Shown here: positions 2,176 to 61,140 of the stretch, piece after piece
Layout: each line of letters starts with the position of its first letter
How positions within the stretch are numbered: the stretch's first letter is position 1
From: Quercus robur
Lineage: Eukaryota; Streptophyta; Magnoliopsida; Fagales; Fagaceae
DNA length: 64,000 bases
Direction: 5' to 3'
Assembly: GCF_932294415.1 (NCBI RefSeq)
Contig: NC_065545.1
Location: forward strand, 40,958,327 to 41,022,326
Notes under the pieces: model-generated
The model's input: the letters and a program-made list of their open reading frames with translations, nothing else
Databases searched by the model: none
Told to the model about the DNA's origin: nothing
Position numbers and translations under genes: made by a program

Positions 2176-5100
2176 CTGAAATTCACCAATACCAGGATAC
2201 CTCCATCCCATCCTTTCAGAAGAAGAAGGATACTTCAGCTCCCCAGATGCCCCGAGTCCGATCTCTACAGAAGAAATTTGACCCTCTGCAAACAAGTCAT
2301 CAAATTCTGTCCGGAAGCTTCTCATGAAATCAAAATAGACCTGCACAAATTTGAGACTGCTGATGAGTAACAAAAATCCAAAAGATATAAGCATAAATGA
2401 GTTTTAACTTTCGACTGAGAACAACTGGTCCTATGCATAAAAGACTTGTTATGAAGAACCATTTTGAGATTAACTGACTTGAACAAAAAAAAAGACAAAC
2501 ATTTACAATAGACATAAGCATAAATGCGAGACTACTAATGAGCAACAAAAAGCATAAATGAGTTCCAACTGAGAACAACAGGTCCCATGCATAAAAGACT
2601 CATGTTATGAAGTACCATTTTGTGATTAACTAACATGAAAGAAAAAAAAAAAGAACATTAACAAGAGAAAGTGGCGACAATGTCTTAGTAGAAGTTCAAT
2701 AAAATAAAATTTATAGCTTCATTTTCAATAGTAAAGAAAGACAAATTTATCAATTCAATAAATACCTCAATGGCAGTTCTTCCTTTTAGAACTCGTTCTT
2801 TATCAATGCCCCATGACAGACATTCAGGATTCCTCCTACCTTCACGATCTGTGAAGAATATATCCGGGTTGTCTTTTCCAATCTCCATAACCCATTGTGG
2901 AAGGGCAATCAACGTGTCACCAGAGTCATTTCCTCCATACTCATGAAATGCCATCACAACCTTTGGAATTTTATAAGATATTTTAAAAATTATTCAACAA
3001 CAATGAGTAATATGCATTCTCTTAAAAAGACAAACTGTCAATTAGAGAAACCCTTACCTATAAAAATCAGTCATAATAATGTTTCCATAATAACCCTATA
3101 TTCTCACCGATTAGAAAAGAATCATGAATTAGAATTTTTAACATGAAAATTTTAGGTAGCAAAGCACTTTGAGCTCCTATACTTGGTAGGGTTCAAGAAT
3201 ACGCCGAAACTTGAGAGACCAATAAACAGACACAACAGTGTAAATGTAGGTTCTCAGGGAGTACCACATTTTTTTTTTTTTTTTTTTTTGGTTTTACAAC
3301 ATGTTTTATTGATAAGGGACTACCTCAAATCCTATTGTATCTATGAATAAATAAAAAAGACAAACTTCAATTTACTTATAAAAAAAATCCTAAAGAATTA
3401 TAAAAATGCAGTTACAAATAAATGAATAATATGACAGGGGACTCAATTTATCCACAGTAGAATGACTTTCACTAGGACCCAAGACACAATACACTATGAA
3501 TATGTTAGAGTCTGCCATTACATCCATCAAAAGAAAAAATACAATTCGAAAATTTCAGAAATGCAACTTTATAGAATGTAAAAAAATCAGAAACACTTAG
3601 AAATGTTTGGAAACATTGAAAAAGATATTCAAAAAATATATATATCTAGCAAATGATAAAGCAAGCATGAAGAGCCTATACACTTAGACTTATGCGAGAC
3701 TAATGTCAAACAAGTTAGAAGACGTGTCAACAGAATGAAACTCTTCTACATAGTGACTAAAATTTCTTTCAGAAAATTGTGGTTGATGTGATCTACAACA
3801 TCTTCAACAAAATGTTCAGTTAATCAACATCTACACATGAAATTCTATTGAAGTCATCAACAGAATGGGTTCATCTCTCATTATTTGACTCGCCAAATTG
3901 GTAGATGACATGAGAACACGAGTAACTTAAACTTTTCTAAAATGTTTTCAACTTTTGGTAGGTCTATCTCATCGAAGATGGTCACACTTTGATCAAAACT
4001 AAATTATTCCGTAAGGAAGCACCGCCTTACAAAAGCTAGTTATATATTGAAATAAATAAATATATGACACAAATCCATTCTTTTGAAAGACAAGTGATCA
4101 CTAGTTTTATACATTACATAACATATTTATATGTATATGTGTGTATTTGTGATGGTTCTTATGTGATGTGTATCATTTCTTCATATAAACTGGGAAGATT
4201 TGATTTTATGTTTAGATTTATTTGACAATTTCAATCCTACACATGAATCCGCCAATAGGCTCTCCAGTTAACAATAGAGGAACATATAGTGCAAAATTGT
4301 ATAGGTCCAAACCATTCAACTTAAACTACAAACAACAAAGATGGGGGGATCTTTCATATTTACTTAAATTAGTAGAATGGGTCATATTTTTTTTATATTT
4401 AAATGATAAATGGCATTGCAAGTGTGAGAAAAAAAAATGTATGATCAATTTTTACATAAACAACATTTTTATTTTTATTTTGATAAGTATAAACAACATT
4501 TTTATTTTATTATCTTTACTTTGTTATTTTTCAAATAAGGGGTACTTAATCTATTGATGGCCAGCATTAAAATAAATAAATAAATAAGTAAAGACATTGT
4601 ATGTACATGGGTGACATCCTATGAATTTAGATATGGTAAAATTCACCAACATATACATAATATATTGGACATGTTTATGCACATGTTTAAAATATTTGAA
4701 CCTATGCCAAATACCATACACATAACTCAATTAAATCCTGGGAGTCTACCTGCAAATTCAGCTTGAATTCCTGGATGATGTTAAAGAGTTCCCTATAGCC
4801 AGACCATACGTATTTCTGTGGACTCCAGCCTTCAACAATACCCCACCAACAATCAATAACAACACCATCTACATTTAAAGACTTCAAATGACTAAGCTCC
4901 TGTCTAACACCTTCAGGATCAATCAACTGGCAGAAATTGTTGATAACACCAGTCTGCCACAGAAGTCTAAGGATTTTACAATTCATAGAAACAATTACAA
5001 AATCTGAAAATAGAGTACACATGATATAATTTGTAAACGCAGAAGAAAAATGTATAAAAACAAAATTAAAATATGAAAAAGAAAGCAAGCAGATAATTAA

Positions 5101-8100
5101 GTAAGCACTTGTCAAAAGATTAATCTCAATACAAAATATTATAAATCAGAAAATGAAAAACACCTACCGGAAGCTTTACATAAACAGGGACATATGGAGT
5201 GCTTGTAAAACCATTCCCATGCTCCCCAGAATGAATATCTTGAATAAGCTGCACCAATAAACCACCTGATCAGATATTTTCTTACTTGACAGCTTCAAAC
5301 AACAATGACGCTCCCCAGACAATTATATCAGATAACAAATGTCTCGTGTGTGACCAATGAACCAAAAATATTGTGACACATGCACACAAATACATACCCT
5401 GACACAAGACAAAACCAAAACTGATGCAACTCTAAAATTAAAGAAATGAAAAATAAAATAACCTTGAAATAAGCACTTTGGCTTGTTTGGAATTGGTACC
5501 AAACAAGGAAGCATAACCTAGGAATCCACACCACCTAGGGTCGCTTAGAATCAGCACCAAGGAATTGAAGAAAAAATTCCAACAAATAATTTTTATTACT
5601 CAGGCAAATATGAACGATCTTCATTGGAGTACAATAGTGTGTTTATATAGACTAATAGGAGTTAAGCCTAATTCTAATTGACTTAGAAAAGCCTAATTAT
5701 TGAATTAGAAAAATAACCTATCTCTAGGAAATCAAATAAATACCTGTGAGGACACAATTTGGAACGACCCCTAATAATGTTGGGTTCGCGCGTAAAAAGA
5801 CCCAAACAATATTATTTATAGAGCGTGGGTTTGAAAGGCTAGACCTTGGTCACAAGACAGTGGTTTTCCGTGGCGTTCATACATAATTAAATCGTGTTCG
5901 CCTTAGGAGTCTTTCTCCTGGAGGCGGGCTGGGTGGCTCTGATTTTTGGCCATTTTTCCCAGCCTCTTTCCCCGGATTGCTTCTTTTTCCTTTTATACTA
6001 GCCTGTATCCCTTATCCAACGTCCACGTGTGGGTTCAATTTTCCATGACTAATACTTGTCCCATCAGCCCATACCCAGAGTGATTGGGGGTGGTTGTAAA
6101 AGCTGAAGAGTATGGCTCTGTCAGGTGCAGAGTATTGAATGGCAGTAAGAGCAGTTTTCCCTTTGTACTTGGTCGTTATACTATCCAGCGTACCCTTCTC
6201 TATTGACCTAGATATTTTAGATTTTTTCCCAAACTGTTCCTATACCGTTTTTGCCCTTTCTTCCAGGGAGACCTCGAATATGCCGAGGACAAAATCATCC
6301 TCGGCTGGGTCTCAAGACTATTTGGACTTCTATTACCTATCCTCGGCTATAACCTTCCTCGGCTCGGGCCTTGGGCCCCAGTGTAAAAATGGGCCAGGGC
6401 CACAAATTATTGGACCCCACTATCCCCTCAAAATCCTGCTGTCCGACCTCTTGGTCGGAGAGGAGGGTTTTAGTAATGCCACGCCTTTATTGCGGTCTGC
6501 TTAGATCTGCCCTTCATCAATGTGGGTGTCTCTCCACCTATCCAGGAAACATACCGGACTACGAGATGCGGTTTGCTTTGAATTCATTCATGATGCGTTC
6601 CTGTCGCTTCATTATCTGAAACGCGCCTTTAATGATTTCCCTTTACGAGACCATTTAAATTCAACAGTTATTGACGGCGTGGGGAAGTGGAACGGGTATA
6701 TTCTCGTTTACCGATTTTCTTGGAAACTTGGACAGATTAAATGCCTCCCGTTTTGCCCTTCATATAAGAAGGAAAGCAGGAGGCTACCTCTCTTACACAG
6801 AGACCTTTCAATCCTTTTAAAGTCTGAAAACCCTTAGTCTCCCCCAGAGTTTCCCTTATCCGCTCGCTTGCACTTTGAATTGTGATTTGTCCACGATAGG
6901 AGCGGGAATGAAGAGACCATACCCTTCCCAGAAATGCTACGTTCTTGTGAAACTCAAAATGGCTTGGTCAGGGCAGGGATGGCAAAGACTCAAGATACTT
7001 CTCATCCTCCTTTCAGCCAAAATCCGAAGCAGGGGCTCATCACGTCAAACTTTTGGCGCGACTGAGCTGGGGTCACCCATTATCAGTACCAGCCGCTCTC
7101 TTGTGAGCATAGCTAACATGGCACCGGCGTGTTAGGAGTCAGGACTGACGTAGGGACAAAGTATCCCTGCTTCTTCCTCTCTTCCTTCACTGGTGCCTCC
7201 TTTTGCCTCTCCTTCTTCTTCTTTCCCATCACCAGATCCATCTTGGTGCTTTTCCTTCTTCCTCTTCTTCTCCTCTCACCCCTAGGAAGGTCCTCCTCTC
7301 AATATGGGCGTCACTGGGGCAGAATTTGGAAAGACTTGGAAGCAGAGCTTAAAAAGATTTCTGGTTGTTTGTTTGTTTGTTTTTTTTTTTTTTTTTTTTT
7401 TTTATTGCTTTTGTAATTCGTTTTTTATATAGTCTTGTTTAAGCCCTTCATTGTACGCTGTAATGCCTCTTTATATTAATAAAAAGTCATCATGCTTTAC
7501 TTCATATATTCTATCTTTTTTTTTTTAAATGGTTATGCCGTGAATAGACGTACTACCCTGTGATTTTTTAGTTTTGTACTATGAACGATGCTTAGGGCCG
7601 AAATCCCAATCAATAAAAAGACCTTGCTTTGTACTTATTGAAACTATCCGACATAATAAGTTCGATTTGAACAAATGATACTTAGGGCTGAAATCCTTAC
7701 TAAGAAGAAAAGGAAAAGATATTATGATGAGCTTATTAGAGCTGTCTGGCATAATAACGCCGACCTGAGAAAACAATATTTTGGGCCGAAATCCCTTACC
7801 AAGAAAAAAGATGTCATGATGAACTTATTAGAGGTATCGTGTACAATAAGACCAACCTGAAAATGGGTTGTATACCCCAAACAAGTTTGGGTTGTATACC
7901 CCAAACTTGTTTAAGCCCTTCATTGTACACTGTAATGCCTCTTTATATTAATAAAAAGTCATCATGCTTTACTTCATATATTCTATCTCTTTTTTTTTAA
8001 ATGGTTATGCCATGAATAGACGTACTACCCTGTGATTTTTTAGTTTTGTACTATGAACGATGCTTAGGGCCGAAATCCCAGTCAATAAAAAGACCTTGCT

Positions 8101-12297: not shown

Positions 12298-12487
12298 GGT
12301 GGGGGATTTTTTGTGGTAGTAGTAGCGAGTACTGTGTGGCGAGTGGTTTTCAGTTTGTTAGTTGTTAGTGTTACCGCTTGTTAAGTTTAGATAGATCATG
12401 CTTTCTTTGTTTTTTTTTTTTTTTTAAAAATTCCTTGTTTCTCGTGATAATAGTTCTGTATAATAGCAAAACACCGATTAATTTTTG

Positions 12488-12568
12488 ATGTAGGTAGAAA
12501 TTGAATCTCAGATCTCTTATTCAATTATCAAAAAATTTACCAGTTTAATTAACTGGAATCCACTATTT
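12488..12568 (-). mobile_element. SINE fragment, same family as 31469-31637
   Basis: Read on the minus strand: GTGGATTCCAGTTAATTAAACTGG, then GAATAAGAGATCTGAGATTC. This matches the head of the tRNA-like SINE at 31469, including the A-box and B-box regions. The 3' half is missing. Confidence 0.6.
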
Positions 12569-12606
12569 TTATGTTACTTGGTAGTATGAATCAGAGAAAA
12601 ACTTTA

Positions 12607-13548
12607 GGCAAAAATGCAAAACTGACCCTCTAACTTTCACATTTTTTTATTTTAGTCCTCTCACTTTTAGTTTTGTCAATTTAGTCTTCTAACTTTCAAT
12701 TTTTGTCAATGTAGAGCTCCGTTACATTTCTGTTAGTTACTGCCGTTAGACCCACCGAAATGATGCTGTTTTGCATTTTATATTTTTTTTTTTAATTCGG
12801 AATTAAAAGTAAATAAAAAAATTAAAAAAACATTAAGGGGAACTCGATGTAACTCATTCCTTGCTGATGGTGGACTAAATGCCGAGGGTGTTGCGGTGGA
12901 GAGAGTCGAGGTCGAGGTCGAGGTCAGGACGCTCAAGGGACTTGCTAGTGGGGTCACCAACGCGAGCGGTGGCTCCGTCGATGAGGGCGACGGGCTGGTG
13001 GCCGAAGCGGTGGAACCAGGAGAGGACGATGAGGCTGAGGAGGTTGTCGAGGTGGAGAGACTGAGCGGTGGGGTTGAAATCGCAGTAAACTTTAAGAGCT
13101 GAGGAGAAAAGGAGGAAACAGCGATGGCGGTGTCGTGGAGGTCAAGGCTGATTAGGGATTCAATGAGGCCACGTTGCTAAAGGATTTTGATGACGTTGTT
13201 GTTGTTGTTGAGGCGAGGAGGAGAGGATTGGGGTTGTGTGGAGGAGTGGTAGCAGCAATAGGTGTAGGATTCTGAATCGGTGATGTGTTAGGGGAACGAA
13301 ATGTTTTTTTTTTTTTTTTCCAGATTTTTTTTATTTTCTTTTAATTCCGAATTAAAAAAAATTAAAAATAAAAATAAAATACAAAACAGCGTTGTTTTAG
13401 TGGGTCTAACGGCAGCCACTAACAGAAATGTAACGGAGCCTTACATTGACAAAAATTGAAAGTTAAATGACTGAATTGACAAAATTGAAAGTTAGAGGAC
13501 TAAAATGAAAAAAAGTGAAAGTTAGAGGGTCGGTTTTGCATTTTTGCC
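12607..13548. mobile_element. Mutator-like (Pack-MULE) element with about 200-bp terminal inverted repeats
   Basis: The two ends are inverted copies of each other for about 200 bp: GGCAAAAATGCAAAACTGAC at the left, and GTCGGTTTTGCATTTTTGCC at the right. A 9-bp duplication, AAAACTTTA, flanks the element (12598-12606 and 13549-13557). Long inverted repeats plus a 9-bp duplication are the signature of Mutator-like elements. There is no transposase; the GC-rich centre is a captured host-gene fragment (see 12862-13215). Non-autonomous. Confidence 0.88.
12862..13215 (-). pseudogene. captured fragment of an organellar-type tyrosyl-tRNA synthetase gene
   Basis: Inside the Mutator-like element the minus strand reads, in one frame, RGLIES, then KVYCDFNPTAQSLHLDNLLS, IVLSWFHRFGHQPVALIDGA, TARVGDPTSKSLERPDLDL and HRNTLGI. 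This is the start of the Rossmann fold of bacterial/organellar TyrRS, where intact enzymes read KVYCGFDPTA.SLHLGNL and GGATG.IGDPSGK. The HLGN signature is HLDN here, the glycine-rich GGATG is DGATA, and there are stop codons at both ends of the match, so it cannot encode a working enzyme. Only the N-terminal part of the catalytic domain is present. The sequence is far more GC-rich than its surroundings, as expected for captured exon DNA. Confidence 0.85.
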
Positions 13549-13564
13549 AAAACTTTAATAATAG

Positions 13565-14123
13565 TCTGTATATATTAAGAGGATTCAGAAAGTTAGTTAT
13601 TGCTTTTTTTCCTGTCAAAAATATCCCTAAATTAATTAACCAACAATTTAAAAATAGGATTAAAATAGTAAATTGGAAAAAGAAAGTTAGTTTTTTTTTT
13701 TTACTGTCAAAAATATCCCTACCTAAAACTTAAAAATGGGGTTAAAATAGTAAATTGATAAAAATAATAAATTCTTATTTCTACGTTGAAATATCTTCCT
13801 GCTTCTAATAAACTTCTACTTTTACGTTAATTTAAATTCCTACTTCTACTCACTAACTTCCTACAAAATAGGATTACTTTTTTGTTAGTTTTACCTCACG
13901 TATTCTTTTTTTACTTTTTTACTTCATCAGGATGTATTTGTTTCTTCTGTACTCTTTTTTTTTTCTTTTTTTTTCATTACACCCTTAGGTTTTGTTTTTT
14001 TTTTTTTTTTTTAAGATTAGAAAAAGTAGAAATCTCAAATTATAATAAATGCGAATTATTAATTTTTACCAAAAAAATAGAAGAGCCTCTAAGCACGGGC
14101 GTGAGCGCGTGCTTAGAGACTAG
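13565..14123 (+). mobile_element. non-autonomous Helitron
   Basis: The left end reads TCTGTATATATTAAGAGGAT, a common start of plant Helitrons. The right end has a near-perfect hairpin (CTCTAAGCACG ... CGTGCTTAGAG) a few bases before CTAG, followed by T. Length 559 bp, AT-rich, no coding sequence. The base before the left end is G rather than the expected A. Confidence 0.65.
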
Positions 14124-20400: not shown

Positions 20401-22660
20401 TATTTAAAACACAATTGACTCATGTTAGTTATTTATACATTGGTTATGAAATGGTCAAACTTTTGGACCAGAAAGTGAAATTCTTAAATTCGGTTGCATA
20501 AAAATTCTTCAAAATTTTCCAATTTGCTTTTGGTATGGGGCTTTTTGGAGGTATACCGTATATGGAGAGATAACGATTCTAAAAATAAATAAGCTAAAGG
20601 ATACAGAGATGTGAAAGATAGATTGATGTGAAATCAGGCATGCTTTTGCTTGGCACCAATTCTCAACTATTTGCTTATGATAGCTATGTCAAGAGTCAAG
20701 ACGAATCTCAATCTTACGTTAGAATATTGGTGTCCATTTCTTTTAGATTTTGTAAATTGCAAAAGTGTACCATCTCCAAGTTTGTGCTCACTTGAAATTT
20801 TTTTAAGTGCCAAAGCCCTCAAGTAAACTTTAGGAAGCAAACAGTTTATTTCGGCCTAATTTTAATGTACTATTTATAGCGCATCACATGATGCAAGCTA
20901 GTCACTCTCTTTTGCCAACATGCATATCTATTTAGTGTGAAGTTGCTTATTTTCTTTTTGTTAAACAGTAACTCAATACCTCTATTGAGCTACTATTCAT
21001 TAAGGCAGTGTTTGGATTGCGCATTTGCGCGTCTAGCGTCTGCATTTCCTTTTTTTTTTTTTAGCCGTAATATTTGACTTTTCAGCAATACCAGAGGGTC
21101 CCGTGCACTGTTTACGGGACCCACAAACCTCACTTTTCAGTAACTTTTTTATTAAAAATGAGTTCCATGGCACTATTTACACATTTAAAATTTATTTTAC
21201 TACAGTGTTTTCAATTTTCAGTAAAATAAGTTGTATTCAAATGGACCTTAACAAAACTAAATAAATTCTTTTATTTATTGTAGATTTCGGGATTACAAAT
21301 GTGAATGAAATAAGAAATAGGAAGAATATAAGAAATAGGTGATGTAATATTGAAACTGATGCAAGTGTTTGTACAAAGAAATTGCTAAACTAAAAAAAGT
21401 TAAGTTTTTTGGGCTAATTTAGTTAAGAATGTATATAACTTAGATGGGAATGTTATTCCTTCTTTTGTGGAATAATATTATACTTCTTTTACTAAGCAAA
21501 AATAAATAAATGACCGTTGTGACTGGAGATATGACGGAATCAATTTCCCTACTCACACAAAACATATAATTTGGTAGACCTATATATATATATATTTGTC
21601 ATTTCTATTTTCTCTCTCGTGGAAAAGAAAATAATAAAAATAATATAGTAGATCAAATAGTAAATAATATCTAATTGATATAAAATTTGGCATAAGTATT
21701 TAAGGAAATAAAGATAACATATAATTCAATGATCATAAAAGTATTAATTCAATAAAAAGCTATTTGATAATGTAAAACTGCTTAAAAATTAAACCAAGTA
21801 TAACTTTTTTTTTTTTTTTGAGAGACAAACCAAGTATAACTTGAAACTGGTGTGTGGCTGCTGTGACACTGTGGCTTTTAAATTTGCTATGATTATTTTG
21901 GCTCTCTGAAAAATATATTTTGACTCCATCACTGATTTGGTCTATGTAATAAGTGTATCATTTGTGAGTTTTTTTTTTTTTAATGTTTCATTCTCATGAA
22001 TATTTAAATTTAAGAGATTCATTTTTTTTAAGAGGGGGACGTGATTTTGGGCCTAAGGATAGCAAGCGAATTTGTAATTATGTTTATTCAGTATTTAAAA
22101 AAATAATAATATTTTGACAGAGAGGGAAAGGGGGAAATAATAATAATATTCTGATTTTGGGTCTATGTAATAATTATGTTTCATTCTCCTAGCTCCAGTC
22201 CTTGTTTTTTGTACCCTTAAACAAAAGCCTTTAAAATGAATATAATAACAAAATCCAAAAAAAATACTATATTTGTTGAGAGATTGGTATTGTTTGACCA
22301 CAACAACACACAGCTCAAGGTCAATTCAATTCTACGGACACTTCCTCCAAAACCTTTATACGCAAACTAAACTAAAGGTTTTTTTTTTTTTTTTTTTTAA
22401 CAAAAAGAAAGAAAAAGTAAAATAAAGCTCATGGCTTACATAGCACGCGCAAAACTTAGAAAGCTCATGAAGACATGAACATCGTGATAAAAGCGAAATT
22501 TGAATCTTTCCCCAAAAATAAAGGCGAAGGGCCTGGGCCAGAGGCATACAAAGCAAACCAAGACAACACAAGCACGGCACAGACAACACCATGGTTGTTC
22601 AATAATTAATACTCATACTTCATAATAATTATTCCCTTTCTTTAAAGGAAAAAAAAAGAG
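20401..22660. other. intergenic, one MITE, no gene seen
   Basis: AT-rich sequence with T- and A-runs (21807-21819, 22380-22398) and the MITE at 21007-21243. No exon-like stretch was recognised on either strand. Confidence 0.5.
21007..21243. mobile_element. hAT-type MITE, same family as 24234-24614
   Basis: GTGTTTGGATTGCGCATTTG at the left, then GGGTCCCGTGCACTGTTTAC and GGACCCACAAACCTCA, ending TTCAAATGGACC. Its reverse complement matches the MITE at 24234 over most of its length. Confidence 0.6.
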
Positions 22661-23686
22661 GATAATTATAGATTATGCACCTGTACTTTAGCCCAAATTT
22701 AACTTACCCACCCGTAATTTCATTTTTGACACTTTACTCACCTGTACTTCCTTCCGTTATTATTCCGTAATCCACCTCTCTTTCAAACGATACTCTAACA
22801 CATAATTTATCAAAAATGAAATCCAAAACAGATTAAACACTCCTTACTCCCAAAACACACTCCCATCTGAACACGTGCAAATTACAGCAAAAAAATTGGC
22901 AAAATTTATATTTAACTTTCCCACACGTTCTCACCAACCAAACAAGTTAGATCCACAAAAATAAATAAATAAATGAAAAAAAAAATCAACAATGAAACCA
23001 GCTTCAATATTCATCTAAAGATAATGAGATTAAGTAATCTGCACATGCCAAATAAATTACTCACTTAATAAAGAGTCGGCTCATCTGAAGATCCCTTCTT
23101 TGATCCGTGTTGTAGATCACAAATCTCGCGTCGGTACTCTTCTCAGTTTTGTCCTTAAACCTTGATTTCTCACATAAAGACCCAAATCTCCTTTGATGAC
23201 AACAAAGAAGGCAAACTCTTATGAAGATACATATGTGAATGAATTGGAATCATCAATCTCTGTTGTTGATTCATCTGAGGAGAGGGCTTTGGTAAGTTCA
23301 TTCTTGAAGCCAAGGAAAGTATTGCACAAGAGGAAAGGCATACCTCACACATTGACATGCTGATTGTCATTGCAGTTAGCCAAAGAGAGAGTTATCATCG
23401 GGAGAAGCAATGGCTGTGGAGCTCTAGAACAGTGACAAGATCAAGGAGGAGCTCATCCACACAAACCACAACACAAAAACAGACAATATTATTAAAAGTT
23501 TTTGTTTTGTTTGATTTGTTTTGGGTTTTGTTTTTGATGAGTTATGTGTTAGAGTAACATCTAAAAGGGAGGTGGATTACGAAGTAGTAACGGAGGAAAA
23601 CACAGGTAGGTAAAAGTGTCAAAAATGAAACCACATGTGGGTAAGTTAAATTTTGGCTAAACCACAGGTGGTAATTTGTAATTATC
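22661..23686. mobile_element. long-inverted-repeat DNA element (Mutator-like), possible gene capture
   Basis: Terminal inverted repeats of about 170 bp: GATAATTATAGATTATGCAC at the left, and GATAATTACAAATTACCACC (read inward) at the right. Both arms also share ATTTAACTTACCCAC, TTTCATTTTTGACACTTT and CGTAATCCACCTC. Flanks are A-rich, so the target duplication is uncertain. The centre has a plus-strand frame MTTKKANSYEDTYVNELESS ending in a donor-like GTAAGTTC, then a TTGCAG acceptor-like site at about 23372. It looks like captured exon-intron-exon DNA, but I do not recognise the source gene. Confidence 0.7.
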
Positions 23687-23916
23687 AAAAAAAAAAAAAA
23701 GTTAATGAATGTCTTATAAGCATCGCTTTAGAAAATATTTTTAAAAAACTTTAGTGAGAAAAATATAAAAAACAACTAACTTTTTTAATAGCTTTTTTAT
23801 ATTTCAAAATTTTCCTTAAATAGTTCATAAATAAAAATTTTAAGAGCACCTGATAATTGGATTGATTATTTAGAGTAAAATGCTATATTCCTTCAAAAAA
23901 ACAAAAAGTAAAATGT

Positions 23917-24066
23917 GGGGGTGTTTGGTACACCCACTCAAACACACATTTTCAGTTTTAAAATAACATTACATGTATTTTCATACACTTTTTCACCCAC
24001 ACGTATTTCCACACATGTTTTCAAACAACAAAACACACGTTTTTAAACATATGTACCAAACACCCC
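23917..24066. mobile_element. 150-bp MITE with GGGGTGTTTGGTAC ends
   Basis: Perfect terminal inverted repeat GGGGTGTTTGGTAC / GTACCAAACACCCC. The interior holds TAACATTACA-GTATTTTCAT, shared with the copy at 48861. Confidence 0.75.
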
Positions 24067-24233
24067 AGTCACTTAGCATTGCTATTACCGCCTAATAAAA
24101 ATAAGGAAAATTAAAGTTTCACGGACACGCTACTCCTCTTATGGACACTAATATAACATGTCTACATTTAAGACATGACATTTAGTGTTTACCAAGTCTC
24201 AGATAATCAAAACCCTAAAATTTTGGATTAAGG

Positions 24234-24614
24234 GTCCGTTTAAATACCGTTTATTTTGCTGAAAACTGAAAACACTGTAATAAAATAAATTTAAAATGTG
24301 TGAACAGTGCTATGAGATCCATTTTTAATTAAAATTTTGGCGAAAGAAGATGTTTGTGGGTCCCGTAAATAGTACAAGGGACCCATTGACAGTGCCATTC
24401 CAGTGAAATGTGTAGATGTTCAAAGAGTAGTGGGTCCCGTGCATGAAATTTGTAGATGTTCAAAGAGTAGTGGGTCTCGTGCACAGTGCACAGGACCCAT
24501 TGACAGGTCTGTGTCCCACGTGAACGCGCTTCTAGTAAAAAGAAAAAAAAAAAAAAAAAAAAAAAGGAAACTTGAAACACAAAATGCACCATTTTCATCT
24601 ATATCCAAACGGAT
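24234..24614. mobile_element. hAT-type MITE with internal tandem duplication
   Basis: GGGTCCGTTTAAATACCGTT at the left, CCAAACGG near the right. It matches the MITE at 21007 in reverse orientation (AAAACTGAAAACACTGTAAT, GGGTCCCGTAAA). A unit with TGTAGATGTTCAAAGAGTAG is repeated in the middle (24412 and 24452). Confidence 0.55.
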
Positions 24615-39115: not shown

Positions 39116-39360
39116 AATGACCCTCAACAACATGTAATATGATTTTCACAAAATTTAATATATGTGCTAAAAACATAAAGACATGTAATCCAACGGTTAG
39201 ATTTTCAAAATATATAGTCAAGTTAATTTTTTTAACCAAGTTTGTAACCAAACTTTATTTTAACTATTACTGTTATTGTATTGAATTATTATACAAATTT
39301 TTATCTATAATAATTGTATGAAATTATTATACAAATTGACTTGATATAAATGTTAAGGGG

Positions 39361-39613
39361 AAATTACACTTTACCACCCTAAACTATACCTTAGATTACA
39401 CTTTGCACTCTAAACTATTCGAATACACATTTTGCACTCTAAACTATTACATTTGTTATACTTTGCACCTCGATGTTAATTTAACTGTTATGTTGGATGG
39501 AAAACTTTAGCACATGACTTGCACATGTGTATTGCTGAAATGGCACAAAGTCAAAAGACCAAAACCTCCCTCTTTCCAATTAATTAAAAACAAAAACTTA
39601 TTTCTTTATTTTT

Positions 39614-39647
<34 letters not shown>

Positions 39648-40588
39648 ATCAAAATTTGTGAAACCCTAAATCCCCAAAACAAAATTATCAATGTCACCAC
39701 CACCACTTCACCATTACTCCCCCACTATAACATTTTCGTTATTTGGCTCCCATAAACTAAAAAATATTTCAAGATGGCTGGTCCAATTTAAAAACAATGA
39801 TGATGATGGAAATCTTCAACATTAGAACAAAACATGGTCCCAAGTAAATATATCGGTAAATTTTGTTATCGGAGCACTTAGGAAATGTTATACTACACAG
39901 AGGTAAGATCATGGTTAATTTGCCATGGAAGAGAAAAGGTCAGTGTGAGCATTTAAAATTATGTCTTTCCATTGAATATTATAATTAAGTTCAACGTAAG
40001 TTTGCACTCCTTTTTGCAGTAAGTGGCTATCAAAAAGCTGATATATGGCTTACAAGTTAATATTAATTAAAGATCCAGTGCCATAAAATTGGTAGCCTCG
40101 TGGCATTGGCAAAGCCACATATTAACTGCTAAGGAAAAGGTTGTTTTTCACTTTCCCTCATGGACATGTTCAGTGGCTCTTGTAAAGACCATTTAACCAT
40201 TTATATTCAAGAGGTCAAGTCGGCCATTCATTGCAGTGGTGGTCTTGGTGGAGCAGTAGTGGTGCCATTGATGATTTGATTTGGGAAGAGGAGCTGCTAT
40301 GCACGCACAAGAGGGAGAGAGAGAGAGTTGGGTAAAAAAAAATAAAGAAATAACTTTTTGTTTTTAATTAATTGGAAAGAGGGGGGGTTTGGTCTTTTGA
40401 TTTTGTGCCACTTCAGCAATACACGTGCAAGTCATGTGCTCAAGATTTCCATCTAACATAACAGTAAAATTAACATCGGGGTGCAAAGTGTAACAAATGT
40501 AATAGTTTAGGGTGCAAAATGTGCATTCGAATAGTTTATGGTGCAAAGTGTAATTTGGAGTATAATTTAGGATGGTAAAGTGTAATTT
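39361..40588. mobile_element. long-inverted-repeat DNA element (Mutator-like or foldback)
   Basis: Arms of about 285 bp are inverted copies. The left arm has AAATTACACTTTACCACCC, TTACACTTTGCAC, AAACTATTCGAAT and a (CT)n run at 39619-39643. The right arm has the complement, including (GA)n at 40310-40327. The 650-bp centre shows no recognisable gene. The target duplication is not clear, so the superfamily is uncertain. Confidence 0.75.
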
Positions 40589-41107
40589 CTTCAAATTTTG
40601 AAGATTAATTTTGATGGTCATACATTGTATTGCAATCACGCCGAAGGCACTAATCACGCGTTATTATTGTATTGGAAAAATGCATTAATCCGACAAAAGC
40701 ATAAAGAGTTGATTATAAAAATGGACAAATAAATTCATCTTGATTTCAAAAATTTTAAGAAACAAAACCAAAAAAATAAACTGCCATCCTTTGACCACGC
40801 GCGTGCAAAGATTAACAAAGTACTTATATATTAACATTTATAAATCAGGCAACTTTCAACAAACTTCATTTTTTTTCTTTAAAATTTGCTACACTCCCAC
40901 GTAAACATCTATATATAGAGAGTCACCAAAATTTTTTTGGAATTTTCAGAACACGAAAAAATAGTACTCTCTTCTTACATTTTGGTAAACTTCATCGTGA
41001 TTTTAATAAGTGGACTCTACCATAAATAAGAGAGAATGAAACATTATTCTCTGTGTTTCTAAAGTACTTAAGAATTATTTTAGAGTTACTTCAGCTCTAC
41101 TTCGAAA

Positions 41108-41398
41108 ATGGACCCATATCATGATCGCAGCAAATCCAGTGCATTGAAGGCGTTGGACAGAAGCCTGGCCCTTAGTATTTTATTCCTTACTTTTTCAACT
41201 CTCAATACCATCGTCCATTCCTTTTCTTCTCTCACATTACTACTCTGGTTGCTCTTCTTCTCTTTCTTAACCTTCTCACGTTGCTTCTTCTCCATCTTCT
41301 TTGTTCTGTTTTTTGTTTTTGTTTTTTTCATTCACACGTTTTCTGACTCTCAGACTCTTAATATATCCCTCACCTTTGTGACGTATCTCTACCATTAG
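41108..41398 (+). CDS. hypothetical 96-aa hydrophobic ORF upstream of F-box gene A
   Basis: Opens with MDPYHDRSKSSALKALDRSL in a good start context (AAAATGG), followed by a Leu/Phe-rich stretch that could form two or three membrane segments. It ends 77 bp before the F-box start. It may be an upstream ORF in the leader of that gene, a small membrane protein, or chance. I see no counterpart upstream of F-box gene B. No family recognised. Confidence 0.2.
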   Translation: MDPYHDRSKSSALKALDRSLALSILFLTFSTLNTIVHSFSSLTLLLWLLFFSFLTFSRCFFSIFFVLFFVFVFFIHTFSDSQTLNISLTFVTYLYH

Positions 41399-41475
41399 AT
41401 TCACTGCTTTTCTCTGGTACGTACAATAGAACAGAACGAAATTCAAAACTCTGCTCTGTCCCCTTCCTTCAAAAA

Positions 41476-42576
41476 ATGTCTCAAACAAGAGAACCCACAA
41501 AAGCACAACCACCAACCCTTGGAAAGATCAAGAACAACCATCTTCCGGACGACATGATATTCAACATCTTAGCAAGGCTACCAGTTAAATCACTCATCAG
41601 ATTCAGGTGTGTTTCTAAATCCTGTAACTCCTTAATCACAAGCCCCTATTTCATCTCCACTCACCTTATTAGTTATAATAACAATAATCATGATAATAAG
41701 GATCGTGGTTATATCCTTGACATGTCATGTTTCAATTCTCCTCCTCCTACAAATAGACCAGTTATTACGTTTTATTGCGACCATGAGTTTGATAAAATTT
41801 TCCAGTTTGAAGTTCCCTTAAACCTTCCTTCTCATCATGCCACCTTCTTAGTCGGTTCGTGCAATGGCCTTTTGTGTCTGAATTTTTGTCCTCCACGCAC
41901 TATGATTAATGTTATTTACGTGTGGAACCCCAACATCAGAAAGTTAAAGAGGTTGCCTGATCCTTGTGAAAGCCAATCACACCTTGTGTCACTTGGATTT
42001 GGTTATCAATCTAAGAGTATTGACTACAAGGTTGTTAAGATTTTACGTTGCGTTACCTCTCAACTTGAGGTTGAGGTGTACTTATCGAAATCGGATTCTT
42101 GGAGAAGGGCTGGGTTTTCATTTAGAACTAATGTTGAGTTTGAAATTCATCATAATTATTATTTGCCAATCCCATTCTTTGGTGGAGCTTTGCATTGGTT
42201 ATTAGATACCATACCAGATGAAGAGAACAACAAGAGTGAAATGATTTTGTCATTTGATATCGATAAGGAGACATTCGAAGAGCTAGCGCCACCTGATCAT
42301 TGCTCAGATGGAGAGCATCCTGGGAGATGTCTTATGTTATTTAGGGGGAAGCTAGCTTTGATTAGATTTGTGAGCGTTGGTGAACATAAATTCACATGCA
42401 TATGGGTGATAAAAGATTATGGCACACGTAAATCTTGGAATAAACCTCTTGTTGTACCCAAAAAATATGATGGTTTCAATGGTTTCACCAAGTGTGGTTT
42501 AATTCTATCGCATGAACAATTTCGGATGTCTTCTAATGGTGAATTAAGACGAGGAAAAAAACTAAATATGTTTTAA
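41476..42576 (+). CDS. F-box protein with F-box-associated (FBA) domain, copy A, C-terminus frameshifted
   Basis: Intronless, 366 aa. Residues about 20-62 form the F-box (LPDDMIFNILARLPVKSLIR, FRCVSKSCNSLITSPYFI). The FBA-type beta domain follows, with GSCNGLLCL, VWNPNIRKLKRLP, DYKVVKI, SDSWRR, FFGGALHWLL and MILSFDI. F-box proteins bind SKP1 and bring substrates to SCF ubiquitin ligases; FBA members often act in defence or development. Compared with copy B (59896-61140), the frame shifts in an A-run near 42556-42562, so this copy ends at KLNMF. The other frame continues with YVLIDPE and ISFVATFMESLALLDGANVI to a stop at 42689, matching copy B. About 38 C-terminal residues are thus lost. It may still fold, but the loss could also mark early decay, or a sequencing error in the A-run. 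Confidence 0.85.
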   Translation: MSQTREPTKAQPPTLGKIKNNHLPDDMIFNILARLPVKSLIRFRCVSKSCNSLITSPYFISTHLISYNNNNHDNKDRGYILDMSCFNSPPPTNRPVITFYCDHEFDKIFQFEVPLNLPSHHATFLVGSCNGLLCLNFCPPRTMINVIYVWNPNIRKLKRLPDPCESQSHLVSLGFGYQSKSIDYKVVKILRCVTSQLEVEVYLSKSDSWRRAGFSFRTNVEFEIHHNYYLPIPFFGGALHWLLDTIPDEENNKSEMILSFDIDKETFEELAPPDHCSDGEHPGRCLMLFRGKLALIRFVSVGEHKFTCIWVIKDYGTRKSWNKPLVVPKKYDGFNGFTKCGLILSHEQFRMSSNGELRRGKKLNMF

Positions 42577-59296: not shown

Positions 59297-59663
59297 GGTA
59301 AATTACGTATTTGATTCTTATCCTATACACTATATTTCAATTTAATCCCTAACCGTACAATTGTGTTAATTTAGTTTTTAACCTTTTAGTATCGTGTCAA
59401 TTTAGTCATTGTCATTATTTTTTTTTATGAAAATTGATGACTTATCTAATGGCCTAAATAAAAAATAAACTTCCATTTATGTCATAATAAACTTAAAATT
59501 TATTTTAGCCGTTTGTTATATCAGTAATTTTCATCTAAGATATAACGGTATGGACTAAATTGACACGATATTAAAGGTTAGAGACCAAATTGATACAATT
59601 AAAAAAGTTATAGACTAAATTAAAATATAGTGTAAATATTAGAGACCAAATATGTAGTTTACC
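59297..59663. mobile_element. 367-bp MITE with about 120-bp inverted arms
   Basis: GGTAAATTACGTATTTGATT at the left, and GGTAAACTACATATTTGGTC (read inward) at the right. Both arms contain ACACTATATTT-AATTTA and ATATCGTGTCAATTTAGTC or near copies. No clean target duplication; flanks are T-rich. It ends about 230 bp upstream of F-box gene B. Confidence 0.8.
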
Positions 59664-59770: not shown

Positions 59771-59895
59771 ATATATATATATATATATATATATATTCCT
59801 CGGAATTTCTCAGGAGCGTTAATAAAAACCCTACCTCTCTTTATATTAATAAAAACCCTAAAAACCCTACGTCTCTCTCTCTCTCTCTCTGAAAA
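59771..59895 (+). promoter_or_regulatory. core promoter/leader region of F-box gene B
   Basis: A (TA)n run at 59771-59797 could serve as TATA element, followed by a pyrimidine patch (CT)n at 59871-59890 directly before the ATG at 59896. Such CT patches are common in plant leaders. Confidence 0.35.
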
Positions 59896-61140
59896 ATGTC
59901 TCAGATAAGAGAACCAGCAAGAGAACAACCACCGACCACCCTTCGACGTCAGAAGTATATTCACTACAGTATTGTACTAAACATCCTGGCAAGGCTACCA
60001 GTTAAATCACTCCTAAGATTCAGGTGTGTTTGCAAATCTTGGGACTCCTTAATCACCAGTCCATATTTCATCTCCACCCACTTATATATCAATAACGTTG
60101 ATCGTGGTGATTATATTGTTAACATGCCCTGGTATGTGAACCCTTCTTCTCCTCCTTATTCCAACAGACCAGTCATTACGTTTTATTGCGATCATGATGG
60201 GTTTGATAAAATTTTCGAGTTTGAAATTCCCTCAAGGTTTCCGCCTTATCAAGCTAACTTAGTCGGTTCGTGCAATGGCCTTTTGTGTTTGGAATTTCAA
60301 GTATGGGAGGAGAGATGGCAAGCAGCATCTAAAACTGCTATTATCTACTTGTGGAATCCCAGTATTAGAAAATTAAAGAGGTTGCCTGATATTATGTTTG
60401 ACTGCTTTTTTGACTGCTTTATTCCACTCGGATTTGCTTATCATTCCGAGGATAATGACTACAAAGTTGTCAAGATTTCATATTATTCCAGGAGAAAGCT
60501 TGAGGTTGAGGTGTACACATCAAAATCAGATTCGTGGAGAACACTTGAGGACCTTGACGTTTCATTGAGACCCAAGACTGATGACTTTGGATTTCATTTT
60601 TCTTTGCCAATCCCATTTTTTGGTGGAGCTTTGCATTGGTTAGTAGATATCATACAAGGCGAAGAGAAGCACAAGACTGAAATGATTTTGTCATTTGATG
60701 TCAATAATGAGACATTTGAAGAGCTAGCTGTGCCTGACCGTTGCTTTGATGGAGCAGGCAATGAATTTGATGGGAAATGTATTTCGTTATTTAGGGGGAA
60801 ACTAGCTTTGATTAGATTGGAGACAGTTGGAGAACAAAGTTTTGCATGTGTATGGGCCATAAAGGAGTATGGCAAGCATAAATCCTGGAATAAACCTCTT
60901 GTTGTACGAGAACAATATGATCGTTTCTATGGTCTCACCAAGCGGGGTTTCATTCTTTTGGAAGATGAATCCCACATCTCTGGTAATGGTCAATTAGAAA
61001 TGCAGAAAAAAAGAAAGCTCGTTTTAATTGATCCCGAAGCTCGATGTGAAGAGTGTTTTGATTTTCAAGATATTTCATTCGTAGCTACTTTCATGGAGAG
61101 CTTAGCCTTACTTGATGAAGCAAATGTGATAACTTATTAA
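59896..61140 (+). CDS. F-box protein with F-box-associated (FBA) domain, copy B, intact
   Basis: Intronless, 414 aa. F-box at about residues 22-62 (IVLNILARLPVKSLLRFRCV, CKSWDSLITSPYFISTHL), with the usual LPVKSL core. The FBA-type C-terminal domain follows: GSCNGLLCLEF, LWNPSIRKLKRLPD, DYKVVKISYY, SKSDSWRTLEDL, PIPFFGGALHWLVD, MILSFDV, FEELAVPDRC, LFRGKLALIRLE and KSWNKPLVV. It ends ISFVATFMESLALLDEANVI. The start matches that of copy A (MSQ.REP) and gives the full F-box. Predicted SCF ubiquitin-ligase receptor; the substrate is unknown. It is the closest relative of the gene at 41476 and shares its whole layout, including a resistance-gene fragment downstream, so both come from a segmental duplication. 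A likely polyadenylation region with GAAATGAAATC follows at about 61178. Confidence 0.93.
   Translation: MSQIREPAREQPPTTLRRQKYIHYSIVLNILARLPVKSLLRFRCVCKSWDSLITSPYFISTHLYINNVDRGDYIVNMPWYVNPSSPPYSNRPVITFYCDHDGFDKIFEFEIPSRFPPYQANLVGSCNGLLCLEFQVWEERWQAASKTAIIYLWNPSIRKLKRLPDIMFDCFFDCFIPLGFAYHSEDNDYKVVKISYYSRRKLEVEVYTSKSDSWRTLEDLDVSLRPKTDDFGFHFSLPIPFFGGALHWLVDIIQGEEKHKTEMILSFDVNNETFEELAVPDRCFDGAGNEFDGKCISLFRGKLALIRLETVGEQSFACVWAIKEYGKHKSWNKPLVVREQYDRFYGLTKRGFILLEDESHISGNGQLEMQKKRKLVLIDPEARCEECFDFQDISFVATFMESLALLDEANVITY

Follow-up and report, generated by a model that had tools for sequence, protein, structure and literature searches.

The 942-bp element at positions 12607-13548 of the analysed stretch of Quercus robur DNA (the window, 64,000 nucleotides; C41:40958327-41022326) is almost certainly a non-autonomous Mutator-like element (MULE) of the Pack-MULE kind, carrying a broken piece of a tyrosyl-tRNA synthetase (TyrRS) gene. 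Two papers describe Pack-MULEs as non-autonomous MULEs with long terminal inverted repeats (TIRs), a target-site duplication of 9-11 bp and a fragment of a host gene (PMC3310237, PMC4858842). The identification rests on the ends of the element, on its cargo, on an intact donor gene in the same genome and on related elements elsewhere in that genome.

Structure of the element

Both strands of the element start with GGCAAAAATGCAAAAC, and an exact 9-bp target-site duplication, AAAACTTTA, flanks it at 12598-12606 and 13549-13557. The left TIR (12607-12821, plus strand) and the right TIR (13326-13548, minus strand) are complementary to each other and align over 223 columns with 87% identity (E 7e-76). 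The arms are thus about 215-223 bp long, where a MULE is expected to have TIRs of at least 50 bp, and the duplication falls within the range of 9-11 bp that is typical of MULEs. The first 174 ungapped TIR bases include 19 differences, 15 of which are transitions. By chance, one exact 9-mer pair was seen among 90,072 displaced placements nearby; at the spacing of the element, 5 of 62,800 placements across the whole window had one, including the element's own pair. The core of the element has a GC content of 0.55 versus 0.34 for the window. Because of the inverted arms, the single-strand RNA fold of the element is much more stable than those of shuffled sequences (z -29.3; 0 of 20 shuffles as stable).

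Five frames of the element were scanned against Pfam and only the TyrRS frame matched, i.e. no transposase was found inside the 942 bp. As cargo it carries part of a host gene other than a transposon gene, with the donor at C39:38381846-38383345, and the same TIRs enclose other cargo in 26 elements, a usual though not strictly defining trait of Pack-MULEs. The sequence-only reading had proposed a 942-bp Pack-MULE with inverted repeats of about 200 bp, an exact 9-bp duplication and GC-rich enclosed DNA; each of these features was borne out, and the Pack-MULE identity is supported by the TIRs, the duplication, the TyrRS cargo and the donor in the same genome. One TIR pattern was also searched in public viral contigs and gave 0 matches.

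The captured TyrRS fragment

The minus-strand frame 12875-13141 matches the Pfam family tRNA-synt_1b (E 5.3e-9), exceeding the cut-off of the model, and the NCBIfam model tyrS (E 8.7e-15, 54.7 bits). The latter score is under the whole-protein cut-off of 113.8, as expected of a fragment. When the PDB was searched with the cargo frame, 26 of the 28 sequences listed were named TyrRS, four of them mitochondrial by name; we take the remaining TyrRS entries to be bacterial. Both cargo and donor resemble bacterial and mitochondrial TyrRS, the cargo by the tyrS model and the PDB matches and the donor by its match to a bacterial TyrRS. This agrees with the earlier proposal of a minus-strand start of an organellar-type TyrRS, a label that holds if taken to mean bacterial-type, and best matches to proteins other than TyrRS, which had been named as evidence against that proposal, did not arise in the profile and PDB searches. 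At least one prokaryotic relative of the fragment was confirmed, locus L001, which served as our TyrRS yardstick.

Adding the N-terminal 33 amino acids to the rest of the cargo raised the best PDB score from 56.2 to 64.6 bits, and searched alone against the PDB these residues found no TyrRS. Two proteins that they did match were set aside: an engineered protein (E 2e-5, with no single significant stretch) and a ribosomal protein (E 0.7), neither of which is a TyrRS. A tblastn search of the window for the rest of TyrRS gave a single further match, at E 6.4, which was taken as chance.

Aligned to the donor, the cargo is part of the 5' end of the coding sequence and consists of two minus-strand pieces. 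The larger, at 12866-13268, corresponds to donor coding bases 143-549 (82% identity) and the smaller, at 12840-12865, to bases 701-726 (96% identity over 26 bp). The 151 donor bases between them, 550-700, are deleted in the window copy and retained in the sister copies L012 and L013. Translation and a tblastn search with the donor protein place stop codons in the captured minus-strand frame at 12875-12877 and 13177-13179, and a net frameshift in the region 13111-13126, where donor-protein segments in different frames overlap. Of the donor motifs, HLGN has become HLDN, and IGGAT has aspartate in place of its first glycine.

Changes in the window copy are consistent with methylation-driven decay. 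It differs from the donor at 44 of 405 sites, comprising 29 C>T or G>A changes, six in the reverse direction and nine transversions; these directions treat the donor as the starting state, a rough approximation, and their counts carry no correction for the high GC content of that start. Nineteen of the 29 C>T or G>A changes are in CG or CHG contexts, versus a background of 150/413 for the donor stretch (p 0.0016). The corresponding shares in the sister copies are 20/29 (L011), 19/30 (L012), 23/31 (L014) and 16/21 (L015); the excess is absent in L013 (6/15). The window differences are spread over the three codon positions as 15/10/19 (p 0.26), with no sign of protein constraint.

The donor gene

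A search of the genome (785.7 Mb, 42 contigs) for the parental TyrRS gene, which had been suggested as a check, located an intact frame of 499 amino acids at C39:38381846-38383345 (L010:5347-6846). It has the whole TyrRS architecture, namely tRNA-synt_1b (E 3.1e-78), the SYY C-terminal domain (E 3.3e-12) and S4 (E 3e-5), with no intron in the coding frame, and is 46% identical to the bacterial TyrRS of L001 over 423 alignment columns. Its N-terminal extension reads like a transit peptide. The genome search with the donor frame gave nine matches (8 of 8 candidates scored): the donor itself, six element-borne fragments and one partial near-copy in two pieces. This near-copy (C39:38375558-38375857, in L061) is 97-100% identical to the donor and lies about 6 kb upstream of it.

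At 5 of 190 common columns the six element-borne copies agree on one base unlike that of today's donor, so the capture may have been from an earlier allele or from a paralogue since lost.

It is very improbable that the resemblance to TyrRS arose by chance, or that TIR sequences inserted into a separate pseudogene: nothing was found in its favour, six elements match the donor at the nucleotide level and five of these have one common breakpoint.

A family of elements with the same TIRs

In the whole genome there are 216 exact copies of the 16-base terminus, 97 of them forward and 119 reverse; a reversed control pattern is found once. We examined 32 further TIR places, 27 chosen as pairs and five as single arms; paired ends, delimiting elements of about 1 kb, were found at 26 and none at six. 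The interiors of these 26 elements form 17 clusters, none of which is joined to the TyrRS copies (L013, with one end absent, was left out of the clustering). Interior GC exceeds flank GC in all 26 (medians 0.43 versus 0.28).

Nine-bp duplications at the elements with these TIRs are far above chance. With ends movable by two bases, the duplication is exact in 15 of 26 elements, has at most one mismatch in 23 and at most two in 25, versus means of 0.03, 0.31 and 2.01 (maxima 1, 3 and 7) in displaced controls. With fixed ends it is exact in 15 and has at most two mismatches in 22.

For the content of the interiors, 119 frames (up to five per element) were scanned singly against Pfam at E 0.001 or better, and matched 13 families, including TORTIFOLIA1, EMC3, GT8, WD40, GH17 and fasciclin. 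When nine frames were held to curated cut-offs, EMC3 (in two elements), TORTIFOLIA1 and GH17 passed; in the same nine, DUF874 failed and five frames matched nothing. Some members of the TIR family (among L016-L041) carry fragments of EMC3, TORTIFOLIA1 and GH17 genes, and perhaps of others.

Among 149 transposase-domain places (from the best 150 of 1,249 candidates) and 130 TIR entries (with 100 of the 216 exact termini listed), no autonomous partner was found, the nearest pair being 18.7 kb apart. Among the matches listed, five exact termini on one strand of G000:C5:57522426-57527549 are spaced by about 1.0, 2.0, 1.0 and 1.0 kb, perhaps a tandem array of the element or of its arm.

One member of the family, the 1.2-kb L018, has arms that extend over some 310-360 bp (72% identity) and lacks a clear target duplication. 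In the TyrRS copies, the stretch that separates the core TIR from the cargo matches the inner part of the L018 arms. In the window copy this stretch, at 13269-13305 (minus strand), runs from the core TIR to the captured piece, and its inner part matches both L018 arms, marking it as a remnant of an inner, extended TIR. A second captured gene piece beside the cargo, which we had considered, is ruled out by this match.

Sister copies and the number of captures

Searching for other copies with the same inverted repeats, as the sequence-only reading had advised, thus yielded five more TyrRS carriers in addition to the 26 elements with other cargo; with the window copy, the genome search with the donor gives six. 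In the window copy, donor coding bases 143-549 and 701-726 are present and the 9-bp duplication is exact. L012 (C41, 2.77 Mb) and L013 (C3) hold bases 143-726, the former with a duplication matching at 8 of 9 positions and the latter with its right end absent. L011 (C35) holds bases 143-596, with an 8/9 duplication within an A-rich run, and L014 (C38) bases 143-598, with a 7/8 duplication and one end displaced. L015 (C4) holds bases 317-757 and has a duplication exact over 9. The breakpoint at donor base 143 is therefore common to five of the six copies, and L015 differs at both breakpoints.

In L014 the TyrRS frame (L014:1198-1653) has no stops over about 150-157 codons, corresponding to donor residues 44-200; such a frame could be expressed.

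A tree of the copies was built from 268 donor columns, with the region past the deletion of the window copy masked. It groups the window copy with L012 and L013 (support 95) and L011 with L014 (98); L015 joins the latter pair with a support of only 52. The three deep-branch topologies are indistinguishable (AU p 0.38, 0.62 and 0.38).

We somewhat favour two captures by one TIR family, one starting at base 143 that gave rise to the window copy, L011, L012, L013 and L014, and another of bases 317-757 that gave rise to L015. A second capture becomes likelier because L015 differs both in arm orientation and at both breakpoints: these lie at 317 and 757, whereas the other copies start at 143 and end at 726, 596 or 598, and the long inner-arm remnant meets the 3' end of TyrRS in L015 and its 5' end in the other five copies. 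However, the deep branches of the tree do not separate the topologies, and an inversion with trimming could also give L015. A single capture of at least donor bases 143-757, later trimmed at differing ends and inverted in L015, is accordingly a reading to which we give a smaller though real share of belief. It would account for the same non-donor base being present in all six copies at coding bases 363, 388, 528, 531 and 534, and for coding base 538 differing from the donor in all six, in two states. Four of these five shared states are, however, at third positions and are just as compatible with the donor having changed after the capture, and the other breakpoints and reversed arm asymmetry of L015 speak against a single event. 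In rice, repeated capture of a single gene is known. The preferred reading of two captures refines the Pack-MULE explanation rather than opposing it.

As a model, we propose that roughly 584 bp of the donor TyrRS gene, probably spanning the transit-peptide region and the beginning of the catalytic domain, was captured by an ancestral element, which would have spread by means of a MULE transposase supplied in trans. Cytosine methylation would then have sped its decay. The captured piece would make no working TyrRS, and the insertion in the window would now be mostly inert.

The neighbouring BZR1-BAM gene

Next to the element, on the minus strand, is a gene whose first exon encodes a BES1/BZR1 domain (BES1_N, E 5.5e-43) and which has a Glyco_hydro_14 match in frame 4702-5145. 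The combination of BES1/BZR1 and glycosyl hydrolase 14 domains gives the BZR1-BAMs their name (PMC6394054); in Arabidopsis these are BAM7 and BAM8. By its domains, the neighbour is a BZR1-BAM gene. Its ATG is at 12297-12295 (minus strand), with the element 309 bp upstream, as the earlier estimate of about 300 bp had it. One TATA-like string, which is weak evidence, was found in this spacer (12298-12606, minus strand), 165 bp upstream of the ATG. A genome search for an empty site with 12300-12606 recovered only the query itself at full length; the remaining 39 of the best 40 matches, from 1,617 candidates, were parts of query bases 96-290. These correspond to a dispersed repeat at 12395-12589, between the ATG and the element, which to us reads like a SINE.

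The element may influence the BAM promoter, and small RNA may arise from its inverted repeats. In our estimate, the insertion is unlikely to act as a functional regulatory component of the promoter. The ATG is 309 bp away, the TyrRS piece and the BAM gene are on the same strand, and a rice MULE located 0.4 kb upstream of OsPsbS1 was linked to higher expression (PMC4178011); however, the dispersed repeat separates the element from the ATG. A still broader scenario strikes us as more doubtful again: the same TIR family would have taken the essential organellar TyrRS twice, in opposite orientations, with small RNAs from the copies adjusting the donor and the window copy adjusting the BZR1-BAM promoter.

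Other elements and genes in the window

A Helitron-like element at 13565-14123 apparently abuts the Pack-MULE. It starts with TC (TCTGTATATATTAAGAGG), ends with CTAG and has a hairpin rich in GC at 14084-14121; neither end pattern recurs elsewhere in the window. Elements at 39360-40589, 22661-23686 and 21096-24384, the second nested within the third, also have long inverted repeats (80-89% identical). A MITE-like element with MULE-style subterminal repeats (59297-59663) is directly upstream of an F-box gene; there are two F-box genes with F-box-associated domains, at 41362-42576 and 59893-61140. Across the four long-inverted-repeat pairs besides the Pack-MULE, and the one MITE-like element, no clean duplication abutting the ends was found, the only one seen being in A-runs. 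Nine frames from two of those elements gave one weak Pfam match, below the cut-off (DUF4731, E 0.009).

Discussion

The element is an ordinary Pack-MULE, a well-documented member of an established class of gene-carrying transposons and not a new system. Like the Pack-MULEs described from rice, maize, tomato and other plants, it has long TIRs, a 9-bp duplication and a host gene fragment; it differs from them in host and cargo, and in the AT-rich genome around it (window GC 0.34). For monocots, GC-rich acquisitions and placement at the 5' ends of genes are reported (PMC4858842).

A close counterpart is tomato PM-ZIBP-1 (PMC3310237), which at 944 bp has a 9-bp duplication, 87% TIR identity and one fragment with a named donor, although that fragment comes from a gene for a zinc-ion binding protein; 13 sister copies with tandem TIRs are reported for it. 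OsMULE/JSS (PMC4178011) is likewise a MULE with a 9-bp duplication upstream of a gene (OsPsbS1, 0.4 kb). It differs in its length of about 2.7 kb, its transposase-like frame and its TIRs of about 80 bp, and in the effect on expression that is reported for it. Literature matches for Pack-MULEs and tRNA synthetases included a gene for aspartyl-tRNA synthetase flanked by repeats (PMC2869330). Among the matches listed for Mutator-like elements with tyrosyl-tRNA synthetase, the synthetase was absent. The window element itself was not found among the literature matches listed for Pack-MULEs with tRNA synthetase or Quercus, or for Mutator-like elements with TyrRS.

The internal deletion, the inner-TIR remnant, the donor gene and the five sister copies go beyond the sequence-only reading. 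The general picture of Pack-MULEs is unchanged by the element. What it offers is a case traced within one genome, with the donor, the captured range, five sister copies, several junction types and a neighbour that can be named, and hence concrete junctions for the study of how MULEs acquire sequence. It is also a warning that the TyrRS-like stretch upstream of the BAM gene is transposon cargo and not a gene.
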